Shown in pieces: positions 4,651 through 10,702 of a stretch of DNA of 54,040 nucleotides. A program made the translations under genes and the position numbers. The DNA comes from Myxococcales bacterium (GTDB lineage: Bacteria > Myxococcota_A > Polyangia > Fen-1088). Within the stretch, counting starts at the first letter, position 1, and each line of letters starts with the position of its first letter. A model generated the notes under the pieces. That model searched no databases. It was given only the letters and a program-made list of their open reading frames with translations, and was not told the origin of the DNA. The stretch covers positions 1-54,040 of the forward strand of contig JANXXE010000119.1 in assembly GCA_025350815.1 (NCBI GenBank), given 5' to 3'.

Positions 4651-6921
4651 CTAGTCGAAAAGGCCCATTGCCACTTGCCAATGACGGGCCACGGCAAAGT
4701 GTCTCATACGGTCCAATAGATTGGCTGGATTGCCACCGCAGGACATTCCGGCAGGCGACTGAGCCGCCTCGTCGAGGGTGTAGTCGGCCGCTGCGTCGTC
4801 GATCAGGGGAAGGACCTGCTGCGGCGACAGTACGGTTCGATCGAGCTCTATGAGCTTGGCAATGAATTCGGCGCGGTAGGCGCGCAAGAACGTGTCCTTC
4901 AGGAAGCTGAAGTAATCGCTCCGGTTGTTCCGGATGTTGACGGCGCCCACAAAGAACGACCCGTCCGGGGGGACGAAGCCGCCCATCAGCAAATCCATAT
5001 CCTGCGGCATGACCATCCATTTGCCGTCGGCGCGTTTGTATAAAAAGTGGTTTTGCCAGAAATCATCGAACGGCCCCATCCAGTTGATGACGGCCATGTA
5101 GGACAGCAGTAACGGCAAATCGAAATTGTCGGCAAAAAACTTTCGTTGTCGGTCCAGGCCGCCTGCGCGGGCTTCGTGCAGGCCGGTCACCAGATTCATG
5201 ACGTCGTCCGAGTCCGAACGCCAATCAGTCAACGACTGGCGCTTGTACGAATAGGCAAAGCGCTGGCTGGGGGTATAGCCGCAGTAGTCGGGCAAGGGCC
5301 GCTCGTCGGTAAAGCCGTAGGGACCTTCGTCCCAACGGGCGCCTTCAGCCTTCCACAGATCGCCGAGCACATGATCCTTGCCGAAGAAGCGCAGCAAGTG
5401 ATCTTCGTCGGGAACCTCGACCCGCTGCATGTAGTGGTAGTAGGCGCCATTGATGTAGACGCGCGCGTATTCGGTCTGCGGCCCCGGGATGCCCGCCTTT
5501 TCGAAAAGTTGGTAGCCGACGGTGGTGGCAAAACCCTGACAGGCCTGGGTTAGCTTGTTGAGGTTGATGGACTTCTTGTTCTCGAATCGCGACCAACGTG
5601 GAAAATTGATGTGCCAGGATAGAACACGAAACAACGCAGGGCGCGCGGGCACGGGCGTCTCGGCGGGCCACTTGGTCATGTCGATCGGTAACCCGCTGGC
5701 CCGGTTGGTCCGGCTGCCCTGGTAGCGCGCTTGTACGTCGTAGACGCGCCCGTCCGCCACGAACACCGCCGGCACGCGGGAAAACCAGTCGGCGTTGACG
5801 GCGCACAGCCCGGGCACGCTGCCTGACACGTTGCCCGGGACCCGCCCGGCCTCGATGTAGTCCCACAGGGTCTCCCAGTCCTGCTTCTTGATGAACAGCT
5901 GGAAGGGTCGGGTGACACCGGGCAGTTCGGGCGATACGAAATAGGCGTGCCAGGCGAAGGGATCAGATGGTCGGGGCGAGATGATTTCCTCGCCGTGACC
6001 GCGATTGGCGAGTAGTCGGTAGCGCACGATGCTGCCGTCTTTTTGGCGCGGCAGGCGCGCTTCGAAGCCATCGCCTGCCGCCTTGAGGATGGCGCGGGCG
6101 CGCGGCTCGTCGTCGCGTTCGAGGTCGTCGACAAAATATTCGATGGCGGGCGCCGTCGCGGGGCCGAGACGAGAGAAGCGCATGGACACCAGCGGCGCCT
6201 GGTTCGCCCGAATGAAGGCATCGGTCCGGCCGGTGGCATGAACCTCAAGGTGTGTGGCGATGGCGGCCGGGACGCCCGCCGAGGCGTTGGGCCGTCCCGG
6301 CGTGGCCCCATCCAGCGGCGACGGCGCCCAGTTGGCGGGATCCCCCGACGGCGCGCTGACGGCGATTCGTTCCAGCGAGCGACCGCGGAACTTATGCGCA
6401 TCGAGCGGCAGGTTCTCGGGGGGCAGCCAGGTCTCGCTGCCGCCCAGCGCATCGGCGCCGGCAGGCCAGGGAAACGAATCGCTATAGACCACCTCGTCGG
6501 CGCTTTTTCCCGCCGCATCCAGCAGACCCACGCGCTCGCCGCCGTTGCTCAATGACCCTTCGAAGTTCCCGACGACCCTCGCGGACGAAAGCTTGTAGCT
6601 TGTGACAGCCAGCAGGCTTTTCTTGTTCTTGGCGATCACCAGGTAGCTGCCGGGCGACAAGACAGTGCCGGCGGGAAAGGTGAACTTCACGCCGCGCAGG
6701 GTCCAGCCGGTCAGATCGGCATCCTCGCTTCCGGCGTTGGTGATCTCGATGAACTCGTGCTCCTCGTCGGGCGACGGCTCGGCGACGGGGTGGTACATGA
6801 TCTCGGTCAGCAGCACGCGCGCCCCTTCGTTGCCGCCCAACCTCGAACAACCGCTGCCGGTCAGCAGCAGCGACAGGAGGCCCGCGGCCAGTGGGGAGCA
6901 GGGCCAGCGCAAGGGCTGCAT
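4651..6921 (-). CDS. Exported CotH-like protein with N-terminal lamin-tail domain
   Basis: A 756-residue exported protein. Residues 1-25 form a signal peptide that ends near a cysteine (SGCSRL), probably a lipoprotein, although the lipobox is weak. Residues about 35-165 form a lamin-tail domain (LTEIMYHP, LTGWTLRG, SPGSYLVIA). From about 340 on it is a CotH-type protein: KKSINLNK near residue 452 and the metal-binding QDMDLLMGG near 640 match the K..N and D.D patterns of CotH kinases. CotH proteins phosphorylate spore-coat or extracellular proteins, and LTD-CotH fusions are common in secreted proteins of large-genome bacteria. Its target is unknown. A MITE-like element lies immediately upstream of its start codon (6927-7091), so its promoter must lie in or beyond that element. 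Confidence 0.8.
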   Translation of the reverse strand: MQPLRWPCSPLAAGLLSLLLTGSGCSRLGGNEGARVLLTEIMYHPVAEPSPDEEHEFIEITNAGSEDADLTGWTLRGVKFTFPAGTVLSPGSYLVIAKNKKSLLAVTSYKLSSARVVGNFEGSLSNGGERVGLLDAAGKSADEVVYSDSFPWPAGADALGGSETWLPPENLPLDAHKFRGRSLERIAVSAPSGDPANWAPSPLDGATPGRPNASAGVPAAIATHLEVHATGRTDAFIRANQAPLVSMRFSRLGPATAPAIEYFVDDLERDDEPRARAILKAAGDGFEARLPRQKDGSIVRYRLLANRGHGEEIISPRPSDPFAWHAYFVSPELPGVTRPFQLFIKKQDWETLWDYIEAGRVPGNVSGSVPGLCAVNADWFSRVPAVFVADGRVYDVQARYQGSRTNRASGLPIDMTKWPAETPVPARPALFRVLSWHINFPRWSRFENKKSINLNKLTQACQGFATTVGYQLFEKAGIPGPQTEYARVYINGAYYHYMQRVEVPDEDHLLRFFGKDHVLGDLWKAEGARWDEGPYGFTDERPLPDYCGYTPSQRFAYSYKRQSLTDWRSDSDDVMNLVTGLHEARAGGLDRQRKFFADNFDLPLLLSYMAVINWMGPFDDFWQNHFLYKRADGKWMVMPQDMDLLMGGFVPPDGSFFVGAVNIRNNRSDYFSFLKDTFLRAYRAEFIAKLIELDRTVLSPQQVLPLIDDAAADYTLDEAAQSPAGMSCGGNPANLLDRMRHFAVARHWQVAMGLFD

Positions 6922-6926
6922 CCGGC

Positions 6927-7091
6927 CTAGTGCCTCACGTCAGAAGTTCGGGCAGTGCTGGGACGTCGATCCGACGCTCCGGCTGCGTTGCTCCTCGTTA
7001 CCGTACCTACGGGTACGCCTCCTCGTCGCGCCTTGCCGGACCGCCGGCTTGGCTTCCGATCACTGCCCGATCTTCTGACGTAAGGCACTAG
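6927..7091. mobile_element. MITE-like element with 31-bp terminal inverted repeats
   Basis: A 165-bp non-coding segment is bounded by near-perfect 31-bp inverted repeats, 6927-6957 and 7061-7091, with only 2 mismatches. Each end begins CTAGTGCCT(C/T)ACGTCAGA when read inward. The ends contain the palindrome CTAG, so the target duplication could be CTAG or TA. There is no transposase inside, so any movement would need one in trans. The interior has a short stem CGTACC/GGTACG (7002-7007 with 7012-7017) closed by TACG. The right end runs into the neighbouring gene and supplies its stop codon. I noticed no second copy in this window. Confidence 0.75.
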
Positions 7092-8452
7092 CGCACCGCC
7101 GACGACGTGACCGTCACGTCGGTCAGGGTGGTTGTGCCGATGATCGTCCCGGCGCCCGTGGTCAGGCTGATGCCCACCAAGAAGGGTTCGGGCAGCGGCA
7201 TGGGTGTCTGCGCCACGGGCGTCCACTGAAGGCCGTCGCTGGATACCAGGCCCGTCACTGTGCTGGCAAAGGTGATCGGATCCACCGTGCGTTGCAGGCG
7301 CAGCCACACCGGGGCGGGGCGATCCTCGGCGGCCATCGTGACAACCGTATTCAGCGAAGGCGCGATGCGCGCCTGGAAAATGATTTTGCCAGCAGGGGTC
7401 ACGAAAATGCCCGCGTGCTGCGCGCCCCGGACCAGATTGCCGGGCTGTCCCAGTCGGAACATCAGGCCCACGCGCGCGTTCGGCGTCGTCGCCGGCACGG
7501 TCATCACCCGGGCTGTCAGGGTCAGATTGTCGGCGGCGGCAAAGAAGGCGAAGGCCCCCGCCTCGCCGGTGGAATTGAACCCGTCGCCGCTGCCTGACAG
7601 GGTGACGTTGCTGCCGGCCACCAACACCGTCGGGCCGGCGTGGCTCAGTTCTTCGACCGTCCAGCCGCGTGGTGCGGTGGGGGCATCCCAGACCGCCAGG
7701 CGCAGGATGTCGAAATCCGCGATGGTCTGCGCCATCGGGCTCTTTGACGTGGCGGCTATGCCGACCGCGATGTCGGTCGGTAGGTCGACATCGACGCTGC
7801 CGATCCTGAACCAGCCGAGCGCCCGGTCGACCGTTCGGTAGGCCGTGATGGTGCGGCCGACACGGGTCAGTCGCAACAATGTGCCGGCCCGGATGTTGGC
7901 GTCGGGCGGCAACGCGGTGGTCGGGCCCCCCGTTTGCGCCCGCACCTGCAGGCGCCCTCCCATCGCCGGATCACCGAGAACCGCCAGAAATACGTTGGCG
8001 GCGCCCGCCGAGACGTCGTCGGCCCGGATCATCAACCCCGCCTTGGCGGCGGGATCCGTCATTTGCAGGCTGCGCACACGGGCGACCACGTCGCAGTCAC
8101 CCTTGATCTTCTGGCGGGTGAAGTAGAACGAATCCGCCGCGCCATCGATGTCCGTCCCGCCCGCCCGCAACGAAAAGGCGTTGCCACCAAAGCCCAGTCG
8201 ACCCTTGACGGTACCCACGTCCCCGACGTCCTTGCCCGACCACGGACCGGGATTCGAGGCAGGCGGCAGGGGGGCGTCCAGCAGAACGTCCGTGCCCGTG
8301 CGGTCCGCCCTGCGATCGGCGACCGCCGCATCGACGATCCGATCGTCGGGTGTACCGACCGTCGAACTGTCGGCGCCGCGGCTGCACGACGTTGCCGTCA
8401 ACGTCGCCGTCAACAACGTCGCAATCGAGGACAAACGACCCACAGTGATCAT
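7088..8452 (-). CDS. Exported protein with two concanavalin-like domains
   Basis: About 454 residues. The N-terminus (MITVGRLSSIATLLTATL then TSCSRG) is a signal peptide, probably of a lipoprotein, followed by an Asp/Ala-rich linker. Two repeats of a jelly-roll domain follow, each with an AGLMIRAD or VGLMFRLG strand, an arrangement typical of DUF1349/LamG-like carbohydrate- or surface-binding domains (about residues 75-235 and 265-450). An ATG 15 codons upstream (8497) is possible, but the one at 8452 puts the signal peptide at the N-terminus. The TAG stop lies within the right terminal repeat of the adjacent MITE-like element, so the original C-terminus may have been altered. Role at the cell surface is inferred. 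Confidence 0.7.
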   Translation of the reverse strand: MITVGRLSSIATLLTATLTATSCSRGADSSTVGTPDDRIVDAAVADRRADRTGTDVLLDAPLPPASNPGPWSGKDVGDVGTVKGRLGFGGNAFSLRAGGTDIDGAADSFYFTRQKIKGDCDVVARVRSLQMTDPAAKAGLMIRADDVSAGAANVFLAVLGDPAMGGRLQVRAQTGGPTTALPPDANIRAGTLLRLTRVGRTITAYRTVDRALGWFRIGSVDVDLPTDIAVGIAATSKSPMAQTIADFDILRLAVWDAPTAPRGWTVEELSHAGPTVLVAGSNVTLSGSGDGFNSTGEAGAFAFFAAADNLTLTARVMTVPATTPNARVGLMFRLGQPGNLVRGAQHAGIFVTPAGKIIFQARIAPSLNTVVTMAAEDRPAPVWLRLQRTVDPITFASTVTGLVSSDGLQWTPVAQTPMPLPEPFLVGISLTTGAGTIIGTTTLTDVTVTSSAVR

Positions 8453-8514
8453 CACGTCTGGCCCTTGCGATGAGGATAGGTCCGCGTGGGGCGACATCCA
8501 AGGTGAATCTGACG

Positions 8515-8534
8515 GGGCTGATCTTCACCAGCCC
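8515..8534 (-). terminator. Hairpin just after the histidine kinase gene
   Basis: A perfect 6-bp stem, GGGCTG/CAGCCC (8515-8520 with 8529-8534), with an 8-nt loop begins in the stop codon of the kinase gene. It lies where a minus-strand terminator is expected. There is no T-run behind it, so it may be only a transcript-end stabiliser. Confidence 0.35.
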
Positions 8535-10702
8535 TACACAGGCGCCTCCAGAACCTCCCGCACCTTTTCGCAGATCTGTGCGGGGGTGAACGGCTTGCCG
8601 ATGAAGTGCGCGCCCGCGCGTCGCAAATCGTCCAGGGCCGGATTGTCCCCTGCGTGGCCCGACATGCTGAGCACGCGAATGGCGGGTCGTTCGGACTGGA
8701 TGGTCCTGGCCGCGGCCGGGCCGTTCATCTTGGGCATCACGGTGTCGGTCAGCAGCAGCGCTATCGCACCGTCGAATGCGCGCGCACAGGCGATGGCCTC
8801 CTCGCCGTTGTCGGCGACCAGGACGCGGTAACCGCTGTCGCGCAGGGCAGCGACCACCAGGCCGCGCACGGCATCGTCATCCTCGGCGACCAGGACGGTC
8901 TCGTGGCCCGGCGTCGGTGCGGGCGCCGCTGGGGCCGCGGGTATGTCCTGCGCCTGCCCTGTCGCCTCGGGCAGGCGGACACGGAAGGTCGTCCCCCGGC
9001 CGGGCGCGCTGTCCAGCAGGATGTGCCCGCCCGCCGCGCTGACGATGCCGTGGCAGGTCGCCAGGCCCAGGCCCGTGCCGCGACCGGGCGCCTTCGTGGT
9101 GAAGAAGGGATCGAAGACACGCGCCTGCGTCGATTCATCCATGCCCACGCCGGTATCGCGGATTGTCAACTGTACGAACGATCCTGCGGCGCTGCCCAGT
9201 CGGCGCGCCTGGTCGTCGTCCACGATGACGCTCGAAAGCCCGACGGTCACCGTGCCACCTGCCGGCAGGGCGTCCCGGGCGTTCACCACCAGATTGGCCA
9301 TGACTTGTTCGAACTGGCTGGGGTCGATGTCGACGAACATCGGTCCGCTTGTTGGTGTCAACTGCAGCGTGACGTCCTCGCCGACCAGGCGGCGCAGCAG
9401 GCGGACCATGCCTGCGACCAGATCGATTGCGTCCCGGACCTGGGGCGCGGTCGGCTGATTCTTGGCGAATGACAGCAACTGCCGGGTCAGGTCCGCGGCA
9501 CGCTCGCAAGTAGACGAGATCTCCGTCGTGCGCTCGATGCGCGGATCGCTCGCGGCAAACGATCGCTGCAGAACTTCGCTGTGCCCCATGATGACCGTCA
9601 GAAGATTGTTGAAGTCGTGCGCGATCCCGCCCGCCAATCGCCCCACCGCCTCCATTTTTTCCGCGCGCAGCAACGCGGCGTGACTGGCCTCCAGGGCCTG
9701 GGTTCGTTCGGCCACCCGACCCTCCAGCGTCACCGACAGTTGCTGGACCTCCCACAGGGTCACAAGCTGGCGCGCCATGAACAACAGGGCGATGACGATT
9801 TCCATCACCAGCAACGGCCCAGAAATCTGGCCGCGCAGGGCATCGCCGGCAAGTACGCCCAGGGCCGGAACGCAGGCCGCCAGCGCGCCGAACACAGCCG
9901 GCGTCTCGCGCGTCTTGTCGTGAACGCGCAACGGACCGCCCAGGCGCGCGCTGCCAATGACACCCGCCGCCAGGACGGTCATGCCGACGTCGACGGGGTG
10001 CCCGACGTAGTAGTCGCCCCGCAGACCCAGGATAACCCAGGCGTACTGGTAGGCGACGACGCCGCCCAACACCAGACCGAAGCAACCCAGCGTCCCGCGC
10101 AGCAACGCCGGGCGATCAGCGCCGACGTACAGGATCATTCCCAGCGCGCCCGTCATGGCCAGCAGCGGCCACACGAAGCACATCTTCTCGATCGACGACA
10201 GGTGCGACGCTGCCACGCTGTCGCCGATGCTGATCAGCCAGAAGATGCAGAAGCACGACAGCGAGAAAATCGCGGCGTCCAGCGCCGTGCGCACGCGCTG
10301 CCGAGCGGTGCGCGGCCCCTGCGACCAGGAGATCAATCCCGCCAGGATGAGAGGCATCATCAGCGCGACCAGCGCGTCGCTGAGATTGGGGCTGGCGGGT
10401 GGCGGCCGTCCGGTGGCGAACGCCAGCAGTGGCGGGACCTGGTAAAGACTTTGCAGTGCCGCGGCCACTGCCAGCAGCCGCCAGCCGCGTCCGGTGGCGG
10501 GTTCGCGTCGCGCCCGTCCGACGAAGACGACGCCCGCCAGCGCCCAGGCGACCACGTTGGCGGCGTTGACCAGTGCCGTGCGCACGGTCTCGCCCGTGGG
10601 CAGGTACAACGATCCCACCGCCGTCCCAACGGCCAGCACCAGCATCGCGACGACGGCGGCATCGCCCGGTCGTCGTGGTGTTGTCAGGCTGCGTCCCTGC
10701 AT
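8534..10702 (-). CDS. Membrane-bound hybrid sensor histidine kinase with receiver domain
   Basis: 722 residues. About eight hydrophobic segments occupy residues 15-310 and form a membrane sensor without a recognisable periplasmic domain. A short coiled coil (about 318-350) leads into the HisKA domain with the phospho-acceptor His362 in GGIAHDFNNLL. The ATPase domain has an N-box (LVVNARDAL near 472), a G1 box (DTGVGMD near 516) and a G2 box (GRGTGLGLA near 540). After a Pro/Ala linker the C-terminus is a receiver domain (about 602-720) with phospho-acceptor Asp653 in LLTDTVMPKMNG and the conserved Lys703. It is therefore a hybrid kinase that passes phosphate to its own receiver. No partner histidine phosphotransferase or output regulator is encoded next to it. 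The signal is unknown. Confidence 0.9.
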   Translation of the reverse strand: MQGRSLTTPRRPGDAAVVAMLVLAVGTAVGSLYLPTGETVRTALVNAANVVAWALAGVVFVGRARREPATGRGWRLLAVAAALQSLYQVPPLLAFATGRPPPASPNLSDALVALMMPLILAGLISWSQGPRTARQRVRTALDAAIFSLSCFCIFWLISIGDSVAASHLSSIEKMCFVWPLLAMTGALGMILYVGADRPALLRGTLGCFGLVLGGVVAYQYAWVILGLRGDYYVGHPVDVGMTVLAAGVIGSARLGGPLRVHDKTRETPAVFGALAACVPALGVLAGDALRGQISGPLLVMEIVIALLFMARQLVTLWEVQQLSVTLEGRVAERTQALEASHAALLRAEKMEAVGRLAGGIAHDFNNLLTVIMGHSEVLQRSFAASDPRIERTTEISSTCERAADLTRQLLSFAKNQPTAPQVRDAIDLVAGMVRLLRRLVGEDVTLQLTPTSGPMFVDIDPSQFEQVMANLVVNARDALPAGGTVTVGLSSVIVDDDQARRLGSAAGSFVQLTIRDTGVGMDESTQARVFDPFFTTKAPGRGTGLGLATCHGIVSAAGGHILLDSAPGRGTTFRVRLPEATGQAQDIPAAPAAPAPTPGHETVLVAEDDDAVRGLVVAALRDSGYRVLVADNGEEAIACARAFDGAIALLLTDTVMPKMNGPAAARTIQSERPAIRVLSMSGHAGDNPALDDLRRAGAHFIGKPFTPAQICEKVREVLEAPV

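Follow-up and report, generated by a model that had tools for sequence, protein, structure and literature searches.

A 165-bp element in the genome of a Myxococcales bacterium (GenBank assembly GCA_025350815.1, contig JANXXE010000119.1) is very probably a miniature inverted-repeat transposable element (MITE), mobilised into CTAG by an IS630-type transposase and belonging to a phylum-wide set of elements that combine a structured core of approximately 100 nt with differing ends. Judged from the sequences, this set carries at least two target duplications, TA and TTA/TAA, and our alignments show a similar core, with compensatory pairing, across end types. The element is apparently one of a large bacterial family for which we found no earlier description; the accessible portions of the open-licence literature on MITEs of myxobacteria and Sorangium, on conserved cores and on bacterial pairs resembling Stowaway and Tourist do not describe it. 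The window referred to below is the whole stretch of 54,040 nucleotides analysed, which is one contig (C41) of a host draft genome of 4.5 Mb in 226 contigs.

Architecture of the element

The first-pass annotation of the window had described a MITE-like element with 31-bp inverted ends and a non-coding interior. The ends, each of which includes CTAG (6927-6930 and 7088-7091), do match in 29 of 31 positions, and the left-end pattern, at up to three mismatches, matches only the two arms in the window (0.00 matches expected from 100 shuffles). The inverted repeat is longer than was stated, having arms of 57 nt (6927-6983 and 7035-7091) that are 82% complementary. The full 165 nt form a single hairpin (as RNA, -99.7 kcal/mol, z -10.6, equalled by 0/200 shuffles), and a DNA fold of the opposite strand gives z -10.3. 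Mechanical ORFs aside, the interior is non-coding, as had been claimed; hence the element is short, non-coding and bounded by terminal inverted repeats, as MITEs are. No Rfam family matched over the element, and two sub-threshold matches, short of the gathering score, both lay outside it. The element sits between two ORFs on the minus strand, one of which ends within its right terminus (Table 1).

Table 1. Features of the element and its surroundings in the window
Feature	Position	Strand	Basis
Whole MITE, 165 bp including CTAG at both ends	6927..7091	+	Inverted repeat, fold, identical boundaries of copies
Left terminal inverted repeat	6927..6957	+	End-pattern search
Right terminal inverted repeat, 29/31 against left	7061..7091	-	End-pattern search
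TA of left CTAG, putative copy of the TA target duplication	6928..6929	.	Empty sites of related copies
TA of right CTAG, putative other copy of the target duplication	7089..7090	.	Sequence, ORFs, empty sites of related copies, stop-codon analysis
Conserved structured core, common to elements with other ends	6960..7058	+	Alignment, covariation, core model
Covarying pair, 5' partner (C-G 18/31, G-C 13/31), between invariant pyrimidine mismatches	6994	+	Alignment
Covarying pair, 3' partner	7025	+	Alignment
Apical hairpin CGTACC-TACG-GGTACG, stem covarying between copies	7002..7017	+	Fold and covariation
ORF, 469 aa, TAG stop (7088-7090) made by right end of element; no Pfam match	7088..8497	-	
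Next ORF downstream, same strand, LTD and CotH domains; start codon about 5 bp from element	4651..6921	-	
Neighbouring gene, hybrid histidine kinase with receiver domain	8534..10702	-	

Copies in the host and its relatives

A search for further copies of the ends, proposed in the first-pass annotation as a check, was positive: the host draft genome contains five full copies (96-100%) with identical boundaries and four that are cut by contig ends, besides degenerate remnants. A second, sister subfamily with CTAGTGCACCGCC ends is represented in the host by five copies of 165 bp. BLAST matched 12 of 29 genomes in a set of relatives, the host counted, while a covariance model (R1) matched 13 of the 18 genomes of the taxonomic family, with 344 matches, 101 of them in one genome; these outnumber the copies because the palindrome can match on both strands. 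Among 28 palindromes located in loci, 24 measure exactly 165 bp, three measure 166 bp and one 96 bp. Plasmids, phages and viral contigs were searched and gave no matches. Together with a model of the core (R2, below), R1 flags a repeat that is abundant and that interrupts draft assemblies in this group: four of the nine host copies end a contig. The right flank of locus L049 (genome G013) holds a distinct repeat of some 80 bp (GGGGAGCCGGCGAGC..GGGAACCCT..AGGGTTCCCATCTC), which recurs in dozens of places in G006, G010, G013-G017, G009 and G012.

Insertion site and target duplication

Empty sites were sought by joining the flanks of copies from one related genus; 12 of 13 junctions were queried (L070 was excluded for N) against nine genomes, and the matches aligned. 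Clean contiguous empty orthologues were recovered at six of the 12, every one with a single TA against two in the occupied site; at the others (L050, L053, L058, L059, L081 and L092) no clean empty site was used. Empty sites, also among the proposed checks, are thus documented for related copies rather than for the window copy itself. The empty allele is CTAG at L048 (in G016), at L049 (G017 and G014) and at L063 (G015 and G013). At L047 it is CTAG in G014, G010 and G015, TTAG in G013 and TTAA in G017, the G006 junction not being alignable; at L054, TAG is retained in six genomes, five of which have GTAG; and at L062 G017 has TTA. We read these alignments as pointing to a duplication of TA with a preference for CTAG; a TA duplication is expected of an IS630-derived MITE.

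The suggestion that CTAG/TA is the target duplication therefore holds as TA within CTAG, the standing of the outer C and G being not fully settled. Two of the six sites, and two species at a third, have an empty allele other than CTAG (TTAA, TTAG, GTAG or TTA), and therefore the outer C and G could be part of the element. That the element carries them is suggested by the TTAA and GTAG empty sites, but this is weakened by the presence of CTAG in other species at the TTAA site. In-place inversion was considered for one CTAG at which G013 and G015 both have the element with opposite ends leading; the G015 copy is cut short, and therefore nothing is inferred about inversion there.

Placement at stop codons

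Copies lie preferentially at the ends of genes. In a first set of 28 copies (29 were listed, one with a duplicate flank), the TAG of the element was the exact end of the longest of six flanking open frames in 21, against an expectation of one third (p 8e-6), and in 28 other copies this was so in 19 (p 2e-4), both p-values assuming independent copies. The second set derives from 60 loci, of which 41 had a usable element (28 of CTAG and 13 of TTA/TAA type) and 19 were skipped by the rule of the script. Of 30 candidates, 14 combined matching ends with an exact TTA/TAA pair, and the longest open frame ended at that TAA in seven of these; in the second set an open frame ended at TAA in five of 13.

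These placements suggest how insertions might be tolerated. An IS630/Tc1-mariner-type transposase would recognise the ends in trans, excise the element and reinsert it at a TA within CTAG, duplicating the TA. As the element starts with G, TA plus G would retain a TAG stop and leave the protein unharmed, whereas insertions within genes would be removed by selection. Insertions into CTAG at stop codons would thus survive because the duplicated TA and the G of the element remake TAG.

Placement right at stop codons, together with the strong fold and the conserved pairing described below, could also indicate that the element is above all a functional RNA, or a structure of mRNA 3' ends, that transposition has spread but that is kept for its action in transcripts; in the accessible text of one source, ERIC and NEMIS RNAs affect mRNA stability (PMC2229807). 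We consider such a role quite unlikely as the main explanation. There is no clear transcript orientation bias, the ratio relative to the upstream gene being 15:6 in the first set (counted by hand on the 21 positive copies) and 9:10 in the second; Rfam is without a match over the element; and copies at a given site are not fixed between species.

A putative transposase partner

The first-pass annotation had found no transposase in the window and had supposed a partner with the same terminal repeats elsewhere in the genome. The IS630-type family PF13358, for which we searched, gave no match in the whole host assembly, the window included; the proposed check for a transposase was positive in a relative, which has a broken remnant with ends of the same kind. 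PF13358 was detected in three of 12 genomes, and the searches for this domain and for unpaired ends converge at one place, contig C16 of G012, where a DDE_3 gene, divided over two frames and lacking its start, has an end, CTAGTTCCGCCCGTCAGAAGAGCGGGCAGG, about 100 bp away. This end agrees with MITE ends at all of the first 19 bases and at up to 30 of 32 (29/32 for MITEs of the same genome), and with the ends of the window element itself at 16/19 and 24/32. Hence the MITEs of relatives have ends in common with an IS630 element, and the window copy resembles it less closely. Relatives of the G012 transposase occur in 26 of 192 genomes of the class; among IS630 elements of the class whose ends could be located by script, most start with CTAGT or CTAGTN, and the intact ones with CTAGT. 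No intact transposase with ends of this subfamily was found, the G012 partner being broken and the host assembly without PF13358; the partner in the host has presumably been lost or is unassembled. At L131 (G080), a 166-bp copy (783-948) adjoins an IS630-like element (945-2130) with one CTAG in common, as if one had inserted into the end of the other.

Copies, empty sites and this remnant all support the reading as a MITE. A hairpin placed at gene ends also calls to mind the palindromic repeats of the REP/RAYT (IS200/IS605) kind, but this origin is highly improbable: TA is duplicated, the element has terminal inverted repeats, and an end is held in common with a DDE transposase gene. To our knowledge, IS200/IS605 elements produce no target duplication.

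A shared core under different ends

Across the class, R1 (with up to 20 candidates scored per genome) recovered the element from 63 of 144 genomes, representing 39 of 85 genera, and inspection of the matches showed that ends are replaced completely while the interior is unchanged. In a second type, GGGCCC/GGCGCC-like ends lie between two matching triplets, either TTA or TAA. This 3-bp duplication, of the kind expected for IS5/PIF-Harbinger-type MITEs and not that of the window copy, is exact in 11 of 14 copies in G064; the remaining three are decayed, and in none is TTA opposite TAA. A third end type, CTAGAGCGCC, surrounds the same core; L240-L244 (G034) and L290 (G004) have a third-type end CTAGAGCGCCGAAC. 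Two or more end types occur within a single genome in G064, G043, G081, G034 and G003. We aligned 31 diverse elements and grouped them according to end type; between the CTAGT and TTA/TAA types, core identity is 0.69 and identity over the outer 60 columns 0.35, against 0.28 by chance after column shuffling. Within the phylum, the core model R2 matched 63 of 235 genomes and 51 of 163 genera; some of these genomes lie beyond the class and have additional end types, the weaker extra-class matches having been inspected in part.

For the TTA/TAA type no transposase was found, either by a PF13340 search or by inspecting lone ends. The former yielded one IS5-like element (L292:1403-2254, G062), whose ends, CTAGGGCCTGTCC..GGACAGGCCCTAG, differ and likewise lie in CTAG. 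Lone ends were truncated at contig boundaries (L332, L333, L336, L339 and L341), were longer or paired variants (L334, L337, L338, L340 and L342) or, at L335, belonged to a rearranged copy with an insert of about 35 bp; L343, L344 and L345 had no good partner end within 2 kb. Copies of the TTA/TAA type of about 197 bp (L327, L328, L329, L334 and L335; G081 and G064) contain, close to the CGTTGCTC segment of the core, some 35 additional bp (GGGGGCTTGCCCCC..TTCTGTAG..TTGAGGGG) that resemble a second small repeat inserted at this point. In G033 (C5:123461-123502) two ends of this type stand back to back with a triplet in common, forming tandem elements.

Structure and covariation of the core

Covariation was counted on related sequences, using a core structure of 26 pairs on the 31-element alignment, 23 from RNAalifold and three added from our own reading of the register. 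The structure is formed in 94.4% of cells and both sides have changed at 19 of the 26 pairs; none of 500 shuffles reaches the observed value for any of five measures, and slid versions of the structure reduce pairing to 32-49%. Column pair 71-103 (C6994-G7025 in the window) is C-G in 18 elements and G-C in 13, both forms occurring within single genomes (G064, G034 and G012), and is flanked by almost invariant pyrimidine mismatches (U.C and C.U, 28-29/31). Read from the other strand, the mismatches become tandem G.A, which is known for forming stable sheared pairs in both RNA and DNA.

Selection on the folded strand appears to keep the core, with the caveat that DNA-level repair between arms can keep inverted repeats without structural selection. 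The element might then be an ordinary IS630 MITE and nothing else, its interior unselected and either inherited from a common ancestor or passed between species, its pairing maintained by arm repair. Its identity as a MITE, the duplicated TA and the resemblance of its ends to IS630 all agree with this, and arm-to-arm repair is able to produce paired changes; yet the core is common to unrelated ends, and the same mismatches stay in 28-31 of 31 elements where such repair should erase them. We regard this simpler account as rather unlikely. Concerning what a selected core would do, a hairpin that helps the element to spread is the most likely function and a host RNA role the less likely; with low confidence, the want of clear orientation bias favours the former over a role in mRNA. 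Spread might be assisted by an extruded DNA hairpin.

Discussion

Elements of comparable form are known from other bacteria. RUP of Streptococcus pneumoniae (an IS630-Spn1 MITE) is described in the accessible text of PMC2229807 as a 107-bp intergenic repeat with IS630-like ends and TA insertion. The present element resembles it in all these respects, being a short intergenic repeat, but differs in its length of about 165 bp, its insertion into CTAG at stop codons and its structured core, which occurs across the class and phylum beneath other ends. The same text describes ERIC/IRU (127 bp) and Correia/NEMIS as hairpin MITEs with TA at their ends, many copies and stable RNA folds (PMC2229807), features shared here by description, whereas in the present family the ends vary and the core is constant. 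Among insertion sequences, ISY100, a bacterial IS630 element, duplicates TA, and a title referenced in the same source states that IS630 prefers TA in CTAG (PMC2170065, accessible text). IS630/Tc1-mariner elements share with ours the TA duplication and, through the PF13358 element, their ends, but the window element lacks a transposase gene.

The two duplication types have a parallel in two classes of eukaryotic MITE, Stowaway (TA), which is tied to Tc1-mariner, and Tourist (TTA/TAA), tied to PIF-Harbinger/IS5. We know of no case in which eukaryotic Stowaway and Tourist elements have the same core under both duplication types. Comparison of end types suggests that ends seem to have been swapped between transposition systems. 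We tentatively propose, as a possibility and not yet as the probable case, that the core, whose folded strand is conserved and has tandem mismatches to either side of the covarying pair, is an independent module indifferent to transposase, which has acquired ends from two or more transposase families and spreads with any transposase present. Its maintenance throughout the phylum would then be due to recognition of the extruded hairpin, whether by the transposition machinery or by a host factor for replication or repair.

The common view of bacterial MITEs is of junk between two transposon ends. In contrast, the middle is here better conserved than the ends, pairs in a compensatory manner and occurs with different target duplications. 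If the proposal is true, MITE interiors would be functional modules able to switch transposases, and the part played by the hairpin in MITE spread would become directly testable.
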